DNA of 20,758 bases from a virus. The DNA lies in IMG/VR virus record IMGVR_UViG_3300020021_000055, positions 1-20,758 of that record, one strand, 5' to 3'. Both the position numbers and the translations under genes were made by a program. The notes beneath the pieces were generated by a model, which was given only the letters and a program-made list of their open reading frames with translations, ran no database searches and was not told the DNA's origin. Shown piece by piece: positions 7,077 through 20,758 of the stretch; position 1 is the first letter of the stretch, and each line of letters starts with the position of its first letter.

Positions 7077-7748
7077 TTAAAATGGTTGATCATCATTATC
7101 TGTCTCATAAAAATTATTTGGCCGTATAATGAAATTACTCGGTTTCTCAAATGAATTAGATGGTGATATACCTGAAAAAGCATTAACAGGCGCCGGAATA
7201 AAATCTCTATCTAAATCAGTAAATTTTACATATTTACCTACAAATTTTAACCTGACTTTACCAGTTTCACCGTTACGATGCTTGGCTATAATTACCTCTC
7301 CAATACCAGTTGTAGGCATATTATCCTCGTCAACTTCTAACCCGTAATATTCGGGACGATATAAGAAGAGCACCATATCCGCATCCTGCTCAATTGAACC
7401 TGATTCACGCAAATCTGACAGCATTGGCCGTTTGGATCCTCCTGGTCTATTCTCTACGGCCCGTGAGAGCTGAGATAAAGCTATCACGGGTACATTTAAT
7501 TCTTTAGCTACTGATTTTAAAGCCCTGGAGATACTTCCAATCTCCTGCTCTCGGTTACCACCTCCTTTGGCATCAGCAGCTTTACCATGCATAAGCTGTA
7601 AGTAATCAACAATGATTAATTGAATATCGTGTTGCGACTTTAAACGCCTACATTTAGCACGGAATTCAAATATTGTTAGTGCTGGCGTATCATCTATAAT
7701 TAGATTAGCAGCGTCAAGTTTACCAATTGAATTTTTGTCCATTCCCAT
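7077..7748 (-). pseudogene. dnaB: Replicative DNA helicase DnaB, C-terminal fragment (split by frameshift)
   Basis: The distal half of the DnaB RecA-like motor: [20 protein letters not shown] near the start, Walker [12 protein letters not shown] at 43-53 (Asp48), the [13 protein letters not shown] segment at 90-102, and the arginine-finger region [20 protein letters not shown] at 111-130. It is in the -1 frame relative to the N-terminal fragment and overlaps it by 49 bp. Two ATG codons at the overlap (ATG GGA ATG) could allow separate translation. Together the halves would give about 521 residues, normal for DnaB, with a single junction at an A5 run (plus-strand T at 7732-7736). One extra A there would restore a continuous frame. 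Confidence 0.8.
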
Positions 7749-8641
7749 TCTTCCAGGGTGCCTTTCCTTATTTTTTCCTGTTCAATCTCGGCCTCACCAC
7801 TAATTAGGCGATTAACGAGCTGATTAGATGACATTTCCAATGAAAAAACAACTACTGGCTTATCAAAATCAACCGCAGCATTACGTGCGCATGTTAACAC
7901 GAACGCCGTTTTACCCATTGCGGGGCGGGCAGCTATAATAACCAGGTCGGATTTTTGCCAGCCGGAGGTCATCCGGTCAAGATCAGTAAATCCTGATGCA
8001 ACACCGGTTAAGCCGTCCTTTTTATCTTTAAGCGCTTCAATTTCAGCTAAAGATTCCCGCATCAGGTCATGTATAATTCTTGAATCGCGCCGGGTATTGT
8101 TTTGACCAATCTCAAATAAACTCTTTTCTGCCTTATCCAACAGGTCTAAAACATCGGTTGTATCTTCATATGCTATTTGAATTATTTCACTACTGACCCG
8201 TATCAATTCCCGCTGTATGTGTTTTTGTAAGATGATACGGCTATGATATTCAATATTGGCTGCAGAGGCAACGCGGTTAGTAAGCTCGGTGATATAATAA
8301 GCGCCGCCAATCATTTCAATCTCACCCATCTTGCGTAATTGGGCCGTTACGGTAAGGATATCTATAGGGCTTGATTTCTCAAAAAGATCACTTATAGCTT
8401 TAAATATTTTCTGGTGAGCATCTTTATAAAAAACATCTGCTTTTAAAATATCAATTACTGATGATAGCGCGTCCTTTTCCAGCATTAACGCTCCTAATAC
8501 AGCCTCTTCGACATCAACAGCCTGTGGCGGTAGTTTACCTAATCCAGAATAGAATGGTTGTGTGATCCGATTCCTTCGCTCGTCAGATACCTGGCTTTTT
8601 CGCTCATAGAAATCTTTTTTATCATTATCTAAAATTGACAT
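7700..8641 (-). pseudogene. dnaB: Replicative DNA helicase DnaB, N-terminal fragment (split by frameshift)
   Basis: The proximal 313 codons of a DnaB helicase, the hexameric enzyme that unwinds the fork. The N-terminal domain shows PPQAVDVEEAVLGALMLEKD at 38-57. The linker helix is followed by the motor start with VASGFTDLDRMTSGWQKSDL, Walker A AARPAMGKTAF at 237-247 and VVFSLEMS at 264-271. After [12 protein letters not shown] the frame runs into eight unrelated residues and a stop, whereas the neighbouring frame carries the true continuation. Without the second half it lacks Walker B and arginine finger, so no ATPase would form unless the halves reassemble or a -1 slip occurs. Confidence 0.8.
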
Positions 8642-13227: not shown

Positions 13228-15357
13228 TTAAACTGTTACTTCAACTGGTTTGTAAAATGCCTGAAACCTGGTAGTTTCATTATACTCAGGTGATTTAATA
13301 AGCCCATCGCCCATTCCTGCTAAAGTTTCAGCGCCTGCCTCGTCAAGTACAACCCTGCTATCAGCTTCTTTAGGGACGCGGAAACAGATTTGTACAGGGA
13401 AGTTAACTTTAGTATCACCGTTTATGATCTTGACTGATGCGCGCTGGGTAGCCGCCATGATTCTAAAGCCAGAAGACCTTCCTTTCTGTAATAAAATCTG
13501 TATATTTTGTTCAAGTGATTTTAATTCACCAGTTTTCTTCATTTGCATTTTAGGCGCACCTTCCATCATCATCCCAAACATGCCCTTTTTGGGCGCGTAG
13601 TTTCCAACCTGAACCTCTTCTCGGATATCTAACTCAACTCCTTTCCGTGAAGCTGCAATTGCGTCTGCAAATTCATCAAGAAAAACAAGTACTTTTCGTT
13701 TAACGCCATTCCTGATGTTCTCATTCATTTTATCAACAAGCATTGCAACAGTTTCCTCAATTTCAAGTATATCAGAAACCACCCGGATATTAGCATTATA
13801 ATCATTTTCGTATTCGCCAAACTCAAATTTTGGATCTATAATGTAAATATCCTCTATACCTGCCTGTTTTCCATATTCAATAGAATTTCGGACCAAAACA
13901 GATTTACCACTGCCTATAGAGCCGCAAACAAGCGCATTGGTTGTTGAATGGTTGTCAAGGTCCCAATAAATAGTATTTTCATAATTATCTTTACCCAGCG
14001 GTATTTTCATATCAACTAATTCTGCCGGGTCAAACAATAAAGTCCGTTCCCTTTTCTTTGAAAACTCAATTGATACATAAGATTTACCATTATGTACTAC
14101 AAGATCTTTGGAGATACGAACAGCCGCAACATCCAGGGCGTTTGCAATGTCAAGCCGGTGGGAGTGTACTGAGGTGATTTTAACACCTGCAGAAACTTCT
14201 AAAAGGTAAGTATTGCTAGAATAGCCGTCAAATTTATAGGCTACATTTACGATAATATTAAAGCTCCGTAAAACGTGCTCAATTTTTTGTTCTGGTGTCA
14301 TGTCTTTATTTGATAAGTCGTATTGAATAAATTGCGATGCGTTTTTTTGAAAGTCGCGGATAACTTTTGGGTTGATCAGGCCTACAGATATATCCCTGAT
14401 CCTTTTTAGGCGCTTTGAAACCATTTCGCGCTTTGATTCCTCAATAGGGAAATCTTCAACCTCCGCAATCATAGTTTTAGCCCAGAATTCATATATATCT
14501 GATTTATCCTCGTAGTTATCTGACTGGTTGATCAGGTAGATATAATCAGGATCCTGAACAGCTGCCAGCATGCGTTTTAAAGGCTCGTATAATAAGGCTT
14601 CATAAAGGCGGCGGGTATCTTTATCAACTTTTATTTTGATAGGTAGTAACTGATTTGAACCGTCTTTATTTTGAGCAATCTTATTTTCAATAAACCAAAT
14701 CTCGTCTATATCAAGGCCTGATTTTGATTCATAGCCCTTAACGTAGGTGATAGCCTGCTCACCAATGCTTAATTTAGCTTCCTGTTCATCTGTAAATGAT
14801 GTTTTTGATTTATGGTCAACTATAATGAGCTTATCATGGATGCTTTGAAAAACTAAGTCAATCTTTAAATGGCAGGGCATAGGGATATCAACCCCGTTAA
14901 TTGTTAGCCATTCATCGCAATAAACCTCAACATCAATTACCTCTTTGATTTCATCTATATAGGTTCCTATATCGCCAAAGAAGTTTTTAAGCAGGGCATT
15001 AACTGTTTTTAATGCCTTTGCTTTACATTCTTCAATTGTTGGCGTAGTTTTCTGAATCTTCCAGAACGGGGCCGGGAATTCATCTATATATTCAAAGGCA
15101 ATAATTTCCAATGAGGCTAAATCAAGCCGGTTATCAGTTTTAATGCCCGTAAAGAACCTGTCCAATGCTTCATGGTAGGCGCTGCCGGCAACACTTGAAG
15201 CCGAATTTTTACCTTTAAGGTTATAGATGTACCGCATTTCAAAAGCCTTTTCATGGCGGGCGAATTGCGCAACCTTTGAATAGCTCCAACTACTAATTAA
15301 GAAGTTGGAGAGCAGGTTATCTACCTGGTCTGGCGTGTATTTTTTATACTCACTCAT
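13228..15357 (-). CDS. RecB-family nuclease fused to FtsK-like DNA translocase
   Basis: A 709-residue fusion. The N-terminal part (about 20-215) is a PD-(D/E)XK nuclease of the RecB/Cas4 class: SYSKVAQFARHEKAF, VAGSAYHEALDRFF with His62, LKIDLVF with Asp167, VDHKSK with Asp181 and Lys183, and the QxxxY motif at 201-205. No iron-sulphur Cys set is seen. Residues about 350-445 resemble the region before the FtsK motor (ANALDVAAVRI, HNGKSYVSIEF). The motor follows, with Walker A GSIGSGKS at 479-486, IIDPKFEFGEY, Walker B VLVFLDEFAD at 556-565, and GRSSGFRIMAATQRA at 626-640. There is no winged-helix gamma domain and no membrane segment. It is coupled to the putative annealing protein upstream through ATGA. 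It probably translocates along and degrades DNA for phage recombination; that coupling of activities is inferred. Confidence 0.85.
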   Translation of the reverse strand: MSEYKKYTPDQVDNLLSNFLISSWSYSKVAQFARHEKAFEMRYIYNLKGKNSASSVAGSAYHEALDRFFTGIKTDNRLDLASLEIIAFEYIDEFPAPFWKIQKTTPTIEECKAKALKTVNALLKNFFGDIGTYIDEIKEVIDVEVYCDEWLTINGVDIPMPCHLKIDLVFQSIHDKLIIVDHKSKTSFTDEQEAKLSIGEQAITYVKGYESKSGLDIDEIWFIENKIAQNKDGSNQLLPIKIKVDKDTRRLYEALLYEPLKRMLAAVQDPDYIYLINQSDNYEDKSDIYEFWAKTMIAEVEDFPIEESKREMVSKRLKRIRDISVGLINPKVIRDFQKNASQFIQYDLSNKDMTPEQKIEHVLRSFNIIVNVAYKFDGYSSNTYLLEVSAGVKITSVHSHRLDIANALDVAAVRISKDLVVHNGKSYVSIEFSKKRERTLLFDPAELVDMKIPLGKDNYENTIYWDLDNHSTTNALVCGSIGSGKSVLVRNSIEYGKQAGIEDIYIIDPKFEFGEYENDYNANIRVVSDILEIEETVAMLVDKMNENIRNGVKRKVLVFLDEFADAIAASRKGVELDIREEVQVGNYAPKKGMFGMMMEGAPKMQMKKTGELKSLEQNIQILLQKGRSSGFRIMAATQRASVKIINGDTKVNFPVQICFRVPKEADSRVVLDEAGAETLAGMGDGLIKSPEYNETTRFQAFYKPVEVTV

Positions 15358-16181
15358 GGCATAACGATTGAAGATTGTCCACCATTTTTGTTTTTAAGAT
15401 CATTTTTTTGCTGGTCGATGTCTTCTTTTGATTTTACACCACCTTTAAAAGCAAATTCAACCGTTGTATCGCCATCTTTAATTGCCTGGCCCACACCAAT
15501 AAGCGTAACAAGATCATCGGCTGTTACGTGATCAATAGCTGCTTTACCAATCGCTGACAGAATTTCAGACTCTTTTAATGAGTAGGTATCTTTAAGCGCA
15601 TCAAAGATTTGTTTCCTGCGGGCTATCAGTTTGGTTTTATCTGAAACATCGCCTACAATAGTGCTTTTGGCCTCGTTATGTACCTTATCAACGACAGAGC
15701 GGGGTATAACACCTAAAATAGCGTTCCTTAGTGCAATTGAATTACCAGCATTACCAGTAACAACAATCATGTCATCGTTCATGCGGCCGGTTTTAGTCAT
15801 TATTGAGCGCTTAACCTCAACCTTTATAGCCAGGTTATTTTCAAGATCAAAAGCAATACCCTGGGAGGTTAGTGTTTTATCCTCAACAGATATTACTTTA
15901 GCCTCTATCCGCATATTACCCCAGCATTGAGCCAATATTTTAGCAAGATGAACGCTTGGGCCTGTTATAGCCTTACCACCTCTAGGAAGCGAATAAGTAC
16001 AGGTTGCGGCTGTTTCTTTATCCATGGTAACTATTGCTATGGCATTTTCATACGCTCTTTTAATGTTCCGTGGAAATGCTTTTGCGGTAGCTATCTGCAC
16101 GTCAATTGTAGCTTTATCCTGCTGATATACTGTATCAACATTGGCTACGGTTTCAATTATTACATCGTCTTCAATATTCAT
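15354..16181 (-). CDS. Candidate single-strand annealing / recombination protein
   Basis: A 275-residue protein of a phage family seen beside RecB-like nucleases. Its marks are IATAKAFPRNIKRAYENAIA (about 30-49), YSLPRGGKAITGPSVHLAKI (63-82), AQCWGNMRIEAKV, the central DDMIVVTGNAGNSIALRNAI (about 136-155), then LGVIPRSVVDKVHNEA. I recall this pattern (PRGG...GPS..LA....WGN...N.......LR..ILGVIP) in phage proteins commonly left unnamed. With the nuclease gene starting inside its stop codon, an exonuclease-plus-annealing pair like RecE/RecT is the natural reading. The annealing role is an inference from context, not from a motif I can prove. A disordered Lys/Asn-rich tail follows residue 245. 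Confidence 0.6.
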   Translation of the reverse strand: MNIEDDVIIETVANVDTVYQQDKATIDVQIATAKAFPRNIKRAYENAIAIVTMDKETAATCTYSLPRGGKAITGPSVHLAKILAQCWGNMRIEAKVISVEDKTLTSQGIAFDLENNLAIKVEVKRSIMTKTGRMNDDMIVVTGNAGNSIALRNAILGVIPRSVVDKVHNEAKSTIVGDVSDKTKLIARRKQIFDALKDTYSLKESEILSAIGKAAIDHVTADDLVTLIGVGQAIKDGDTTVEFAFKGGVKSKEDIDQQKNDLKNKNGGQSSIVMP

Positions 16182-19894: not shown

Positions 19895-20758
19895 CTATGC
19901 AAGAGCGTACAGCTCATCCCTTTGCTTCTGCACTACATCGCTGTTGATATACTCATCATAGGTCATCAGCTTATCTATGGTGCCGCCGGGGGTTAGTTCA
20001 ATAATGCGGGTGGCAACGGTTTCTACCAGCTCATGGTCACGCGAGGTGAACAGGATGGTGCCTCGGAAGTCTTTCAGACCGTTGTTTAACGCGGTGATGG
20101 ATTCCAGGTCGAGGTGGTTGGTTGGTTCATCAAACATCAGCAAATTGGCTGATTGCAGCATCATGCGGCTAAACATGCATCGCATTTTTTCGCCGCCTGA
20201 CAGTACATTGCTTTTCTTTAATACTTCTTCGCCCGAGAACAGCATGCGGCCTAAAAAACCACGGATAAACTGGTCATCCTTTTCACCGGGCGAGTATTCA
20301 CGCAGCCAGTCGATCAGGTTATCATCCTTACCTTTAAAATATTCGGCATTGTCAATCGGAATATCGGCAGGATTTATGGTTACACCCCATTTAAATTCGC
20401 CTTTATAGTCCTTATCTCTGCCTGTTAATATGTTATAAAAAGCGGTGGTAGCTAAGCTGTTTTGTGAGAGAATGGCTATTTTATCGCCCTTGTTTACCAT
20501 CAGGCGGATGTCATTAAATAACACCTCGCCGTTCAATGATTTGCTCAGGTTCTCAATCTGCAGGATCTGGTCACCAGCTTCACGACCCTGGTTATTGAAT
20601 ATAATACCCGGGTATTTACGGTTTGACGGCTGGATCTCGTCAATGTTAATTTTATCCAGCGCTTTTTTACGGCTGGTTGCCTGTTTTGATTTGGAAGCAT
20701 TGGCGCTAAACCTGCGGATAAATTCCTGCAGCTCTTTTACCCGGTCTTCTGTCTTTTT
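19895..20758 (-). CDS. ABC-F family ATPase, YbiT-like, C-terminal part
   Basis: A soluble ribosome-associated ATPase of the ABC-F class, running off the right edge; 287 residues are visible. The first 40 form the basic inter-domain linker (LQEFIRRFSANASKSKQATS) typical of YbiT-like proteins. The second nucleotide-binding domain has signature LSGGEKMR, Walker B LLMFDEPTNHLD and D-loop. The Walker A position reads ILSQNSLATTAF, without the usual Gly-Lys, and the H-switch region reads FTSRDHELV where FVSHDREFV is common. Such substitutions may be a Bacteroidota lineage feature. This is chromosomal and outside the prophage. Confidence 0.9.
   Translation of the reverse strand, partial: KKTEDRVKELQEFIRRFSANASKSKQATSRKKALDKINIDEIQPSNRKYPGIIFNNQGREAGDQILQIENLSKSLNGEVLFNDIRLMVNKGDKIAILSQNSLATTAFYNILTGRDKDYKGEFKWGVTINPADIPIDNAEYFKGKDDNLIDWLREYSPGEKDDQFIRGFLGRMLFSGEEVLKKSNVLSGGEKMRCMFSRMMLQSANLLMFDEPTNHLDLESITALNNGLKDFRGTILFTSRDHELVETVATRIIELTPGGTIDKLMTYDEYINSDVVQKQRDELYALA

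Follow-up and report, generated by a model that had tools for sequence, protein, structure and literature searches.

The 20,758-base virus record IMGVR_UViG_3300020021_000055 (hereafter the window, i.e. the whole stretch of DNA that was analysed) likely encodes a SynExo-type module for homologous recombination in a phage, with a nuclease that is joined in one chain to an entire double-stranded DNA motor of the FtsK type; its activity, the formation of a complex and its part in recombination are inferred. The window also codes for a terminase, DnaB, a DNA methylase and an S24-type repressor, which marks it as all or part of a temperate-type phage. The module comprises the following features:

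13228..15357, minus strand: nuclease-translocase fusion, ORF of 709 aa
14461..15324, minus strand: PD-(D/E)XK nuclease domain of the fusion, residues ~12-299, Pfam core 23-212, catalytic H62, D167, D181, K183, Q201 and Y205
13231..14304, minus strand: FtsK alpha+beta motor of the fusion, residues 352-709, profile E 8e-39, with matches to FtsK structures
13900..13923, minus strand: Walker A motif GSIGSGKS, residues 479-486, with G484 and K485 invariant in 85 sequences
15354..16181, minus strand: partner gene, ORF of 275 aa, phrog_3657 family, putative annealing protein (SSAP)
15354..15357, minus strand: ATGA overlap of 4 bases between the partner stop and the fusion start
15357..15428, minus strand: C-terminal tail of the partner, residues 252-275, of DIDQQKNDLKNKNGGQSSIVMP type, ending in MP-COOH, proposed docking peptide

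A preliminary description of this DNA had recognized in the 709-residue protein a RecB-family nuclease joined to an FtsK-like motor, and this is borne out by both Pfam domains and structure matches. Three Pfam domains were recovered above their curated cut-offs, namely PDDEXK_1 (residues 23-212; E 3e-7), FtsK_alpha (354-431) and FtsK_SpoIIIE (450-548); the alpha domain, which is absent from the preliminary description, means that the whole motor is present. In the AlphaFold model of the fusion (pLDDT 88, pTM 0.52) residues 12-299 match the nuclease domain of AdnA (9np6; Z 16.4) and the putative exonuclease 3l0a (Z 16.2), and Foldseek additionally recovered Dna2 and the Cas4-like ACE1. Residues 352-708 match the FtsK structures 6t8o, 2iut and 2ius with Z ~33 and 30% identity over 309 aligned residues, above the Z of 17-20 obtained with HerA structures. 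The placement of the nuclease relative to the motor is uncertain, as reflected in the pTM. Across 85 aligned fusions H62, D167, D181, K183, Q201, G484, K485 and E562 are invariant, with Y205 retained in 84 and D561 in 83 of these, and the catalytic residues and Walker A and B motifs named in the preliminary description are hence observed to be intact among the relatives. Thus, the nuclease possesses the H, D, D-x-K and QxxxY motifs and the fold that define the RecB/Cas4 group (PF12705) of PD-(D/E)XK enzymes, and the motor combines the alpha domain with a RecA-like beta domain bearing Walker A and B, as required of the FtsK/SpoIIIE type. Neither the N-terminal membrane domain nor the C-terminal gamma (KOPS) domain of FtsK was found in the chain by Pfam or structure comparison, as had been noted before: the nuclease takes the place of the membrane part, the motor begins near residue 352, and the chain ends at residue 709 with the beta domain as its last part, which establishes the absence of the gamma domain. 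With a nuclease at its N-terminus and a chain that stops after the beta domain, the fusion is an FtsK motor and not an FtsK protein. Inteins favour essential sites such as P-loops, and in one homologue of 967 aa (L082:3784-6687) the Walker A motif of the FtsK part is interrupted by an intein (PF14890 plus HNH_3; GATG^C...HN^SGKS), a position that fits an essential P-loop.

Scans of viral contigs and GTDB genomes recovered 93 distinct homologous fusions (~50-71% identical to that of the window in the 85-row alignment), nearly all of them full length, which argues against the fusion being a chance or assembly artefact. The carriers are phages and prophages, almost all of Bacteroidota, and the titled genome records with the fusion include Chitinophaga, Flavobacterium, Dysgonomonas, Tenacibaculum, Pedobacter, Chryseobacterium and others; mis-binning may account for two short fusion-bearing MAG contigs that carry the labels Sedimentibacter and Gracilibacteria. 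Fusion-bearing host genomes have an FtsK of their own as well, of ~780-890 aa, and among 296 Bacteroidota genomes the fusion was found only in the one that seeded the search. These observations rule out that it is the host FtsK and mark it as an accessory phage gene, and, together with the missing membrane and gamma domains, they agree with the earlier view that it is not a chromosome segregation protein. When 50,697 phage and 72,556 plasmid records were searched by tblastn with the fusion, no match covered more than ~60% of it, the coverage being confined to the FtsK half, so that named isolate phages are uninformative on the fusion.

The preliminary description had placed the start of the fusion inside the stop of a candidate annealing protein, and the DNA at the junction (..ATG CCA TGA.., with the fusion ATG lying inside CCATGA) agrees with this. 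We classified the gene directly upstream of the fusion in each locus, for the 93 distinct fusions plus the window, and found this slot to be occupied by the following families:

phrog_3657: 31 loci, window included
RecT (RecT/Bet PF03837): 17 loci
Sak4 (PF13479): 15 loci
cl3, unclassified: 10 loci
ERF (PF04404): 7 loci
Rad52 (PF04098): 4 loci
Bet-type RecT (RecT/Bet PF03837): 3 loci
RecT-like phrog_561: 3 loci
phrog_15333: 2 loci
singleton (L063 protein): 1 locus

Here PF13479 represents the Sak4 family (PMC8093625); one further fusion, L057, has no partner within reach. The survey of relatives that had been suggested as a check of linkage thus found the fusion and annealer genes side by side in nearly all loci. 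The annealer slot is linked to the fusion and is filled by at least six recognized kinds of annealing protein, and the defining feature of a SynExo pair, i.e. an annealing-protein gene adjoining a nuclease gene, is met. The best tree of the fusions requires a minimum of 30 switches of partner family, and the fusion nearest to that of the window (L020, 70% identical) is paired with a RecT. A modular pairing of the fusion with varied annealers is accordingly well supported.

That the 275-residue partner is itself an annealing protein, as the preliminary description had suspected, is likewise supported, its annealing activity being inferred from slot exchange, fold matches and the neighbours of its relatives. 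The strongest evidence is the presence of recognized annealing proteins in the same slot beside homologous fusions. Sequence models of RecT, ERF, Rad52 and Sak gave no match to the partner, and no Pfam hit was obtained; the profile search proposed earlier thus failed to place it in any of these groups, its sole family match being phrog_3657, of unknown function. For its AlphaFold model (pLDDT 84), compared by VIA-align, the twelve best PDB matches are all to human RAD52 (Z 7.9), yeast Mgm101 (Z 6.2) and the phage 80alpha Sak (Z 6.1), and all lie below Z 8, with lambda Red beta (Z 5.0) and A118 RecT (Z 3.5) scoring lower still. Foldseek with the same model returned nothing better than E 0.04, which is not significant and is uninformative alone. 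These Z values are weak by themselves, and in our weighing it is the coherence of the matches to the predicted model together with the genomic context that makes the case; a match to an unrelated enzyme fold, which had been set beforehand as refuting, did not emerge from the structure prediction. Furthermore, phrog_3657 members without the fusion adjoin RecE-type or DUF3799 (RecE-like) nucleases, and those of Gordonia and Mycobacterium phages lie next to RecE and were named RecT-like by their depositors, pointing again to an annealing protein. A phrog_3657 search of 395 Bacteroidota genomes matched nothing, a result that supports no conclusion.

Unrelated partner families were found to have similar C-terminal ends, such as ..KxELP, ..KxDLP, ..PEMP, ..NLP and ..IMP. 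The partners end in [LM]P in 70/93 cases and in [LM][PLMA] in 88/93, as against 0/141 and 3/141 respectively for distinct fusion-free relatives drawn from three families (RecT, phrog_3657 and Sak4), and 7/708 and 15/708 for the other ORFs of the fusion loci. At position -2, 91 of the 93 partners have L or M, and at position -1, 70 have P. The association between tail and fusion is thus directly observed (Fisher P 6e-40, a value that overstates independence, the sequences being related). Additionally, a lysine-rich KKxx[LIMV]K stretch precedes the tail in 50/93 partners versus 6/162 controls. The tail is absent both from the nearest fusion-free relatives, which are 70-83% identical, and from 9/9 RecTs of fusion-free Bacteroidota genomes, showing, by sequence comparison, that it goes with the fusion and not with any one annealing-protein family. 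Partners situated 47-523 bases from the fusion retain EMP, KMP, DLP or DMP ends and all four proline codons are used in the tails; the idea that the tail merely reflects the ATGA overlap is rejected on these grounds. On the phrog_3657 tree the tail changes ~17 times and the fusion neighbourhood ~16 times; a strict independent-pairs sign test of tail against fusion on this tree was not significant, only 4 pairs being available on well-supported branches. Profile-profile alignment of phrog_3657 with RecT, cl3, RecT-like and phrog_15333 aligned only the C-terminal stretch, and sequence homology of phrog_3657 to RecT was rejected, the profile match being limited to the tail. The tail is most simply explained as a docking peptide for the fusion, docking being an inference for which there are no binding data. 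The partner swapping and the shared tail, neither of which was noticed in the preliminary description, constitute the strongest evidence for its interpretation of the locus as a recombination system.

Individual loci provide further glimpses of how partners and tails change. L045, L046, L049 and L050 have fusions nearly identical to that of L051 and are paired with an unrelated annealing protein; the L049 and L051 fusions are 98.6% identical and both partners end in MP, making this a recent natural partner swap that kept the MP end. The fusions of L064, L080, L105 and L115 belong to a single clade; their partners fall into two unrelated families and have the end NQSPTL[ML] in common, a pattern that would fit transfer of a C-terminal module from one core to another. 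The partners of L105 and L080 have a longer C-terminal segment in common (54% over 100 residues), and their tail DNA is itself alike (25/30 of the last bases); their common tail may be explained by recombination in this segment, and some tails may hence have been inherited through recombination inside the gene. No such likeness of tail DNA was seen in the pairs L049/L051, L021/L112 and L025/L053. In L054, one of the five partners outside [LM][PLMA], the RecT next to the fusion (L054:3141-3986) is interrupted by a single in-frame stop, and the frame beyond it ends in ..EMP. The partners of L025, L029 and L063 (cl3, phrog_15333 and the singleton) sit in the annealer slot and have the tail, without a match to any recognized annealing protein, and these three families are candidates for new annealing proteins.

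The architecture is compatible with motor-driven resection combined with tail docking, a mechanism that remains inferred at each step. By inference from FtsK, the motor would form a hexamer close to a double-strand end of the phage DNA and might pump the duplex through the nuclease, which, being of the RecB/AdnA type, could degrade one strand, for which no polarity data exist. The C-terminal x[LM]P-COOH tail might hold or recruit to the fusion whichever annealing protein is present, and this protein, by analogy with Red alpha/beta, would be loaded on the emerging single strand and pair it with complementary DNA. FtsK pumps duplex DNA and is not a helicase, and the origin of the single strands is therefore unproven for the fusion. 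A motor of the FtsK/HerA type can nonetheless drive 5' resection to a 3' tail, as in the bacterial NurA-HerA (PMC9960219). With no more than modest confidence, we further favour the idea that this motorized end-resection nuclease presents a universal socket, with which any of at least six unrelated families can partner by gaining the x[LM]P-COOH tail, phages swapping annealers freely, and that new families of annealing protein (phrog_3657, cl3, phrog_15333 and the L063 protein) are likewise marked out by slot and tail.

Pairing and tail docking could be real without the motor feeding the nuclease; the motor might instead remove proteins, drive the migration of branched intermediates or bring the complex into position, leaving the nuclease to act alone as in Red/RecET: FtsK motors are established to move along duplex DNA without unwinding it and are able to strip off proteins, and fusion-free members of the same annealer families lie beside motorless nucleases. 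We consider this possible if unlikely, given that the single chain with both sites invariant in 85 sequences suggests coupled action, and that motor and nuclease are coupled in both HerA-NurA and AdnAB. A different objection concerns the tail, which might bind not the fusion but a third partner such as the host SSB, sliding clamp or a protease. That the tail is missing both in 141 fusion-free relatives, some of them as much as 83% identical, and in all nine RecTs of fusion-free Bacteroidota genomes, and that it follows the fusion through at least 30 partner switches, makes this distinctly improbable, even though the C-termini of SSAPs are known to meet other factors and the fusion-bearing phages come nearly all from one phylum.

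Two further readings assign the fusion another role. The structural similarity of the fusion to HerA, whose motors pair with nucleases in defence systems, might imply a DNA-destroying weapon or counter-defence enzyme akin to the HerA-nuclease defence complexes, with an incidental annealer linkage; such a role appears very doubtful, as a recognized or candidate annealing protein lies upstream in nearly all of the 93 loci and the module of the window is adjoined by phage replication genes such as the DnaB helicase. Even less credible is an FtsK for segregation, conjugation or packaging with a decorative nuclease, which could claim that most database matches come from the FtsK half alone and that the TcpA coupling protein is the second-best fold; it is opposed by the lack of membrane and gamma domains, by the FtsK that hosts carry themselves together with the single occurrence among the Bacteroidota genomes searched, and by the separate terminase in the window.

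The preferred reading, a recombination module with a motorized nuclease, can be set beside several known systems. It shares with Red alpha/Red beta and RecE/RecT the adjoining nuclease and annealing-protein genes and an annealer C-terminus implicated in contact, the C-terminal domain of the Red annealer contacting the nuclease (PMC5052646); it differs in the full FtsK motor carried by the nuclease. Moreover, the Red and RecET partners are not exchangeable (PMC5052646), whereas one family of fusion nucleases is combined with many unrelated annealers having a common tail. HerA-NurA likewise couples a hexameric HerA/FtsK-type motor to a nuclease (PMC9960219), the hexamer being inferred for the fusion; however, it requires a HerA-type motor and a separate NurA nuclease and pairs with RadA/RecA, whereas the fusion, which does not meet this definition, is a single phage-borne chain with a PD-(D/E)XK nuclease in place of NurA, a motor closest to FtsK and an annealer as its partner. 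AdnAB, AddAB and RecBCD resemble it in joining a RecB-type nuclease to a motor, with the AdnA match noted above, but their motor is a superfamily 1 helicase. The resemblance to the FtsK translocase itself is limited to the alpha+beta motor, the fusion lacking the other FtsK parts and having an N-terminal nuclease added. Finally, the RecT-like phrog_3657 proteins of Gordonia and Mycobacterium phages represent the same partner family in a similar context beside RecE, with no fusion in their annotated neighbourhoods, and among Bacteroidota members of the family the x[LM]P tail is confined to those accompanied by the fusion.

The literature searched yielded no account of a nuclease-FtsK fusion in a phage, and an earlier mention in a survey of the FtsK-HerA superfamily is not excluded; among the neighbours of RecT, a survey of annealing proteins in Firmicutes names YqaJ and DUF3799 nucleases, and it leaves FtsK unmentioned (PMC8093625). 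Relative to the known SynExo pairs, the novel elements are the motor and a seemingly universal docking tail, and the observations suggest a plug-in recombination machine, undescribed in the literature searched, in which a motor-fused nuclease works with at least six unrelated kinds of annealer, nearly all having the same short tail. In the systems studied so far annealer and exonuclease are tightly matched and unexchangeable, and their coupling is only partly understood; here one nuclease has undergone at least 30 natural exchanges of its annealer with a short C-terminal peptide kept, which renders this coupling testable with a few residues. The fusion might also furnish a motor-assisted, annealer-agnostic recombineering tool for Bacteroidota, and its slot could serve as a genomic bait for unrecognized annealing proteins.

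Two peculiarities of the window lie outside the module. The DnaB-type helicase (7077-8641, minus strand) is broken into two ORFs that overlap and lie in different frames (DnaB_C 1-93 and 94-255), and its homologue in L002 is a single 517-residue ORF; the split could represent either a frameshift or an assembly error. At the right end, past the repressor and regulator genes, the window contains the C-terminal part of an ABC ATPase resembling a host ABC-F gene (19895-20758, minus strand), which possibly marks a prophage boundary.
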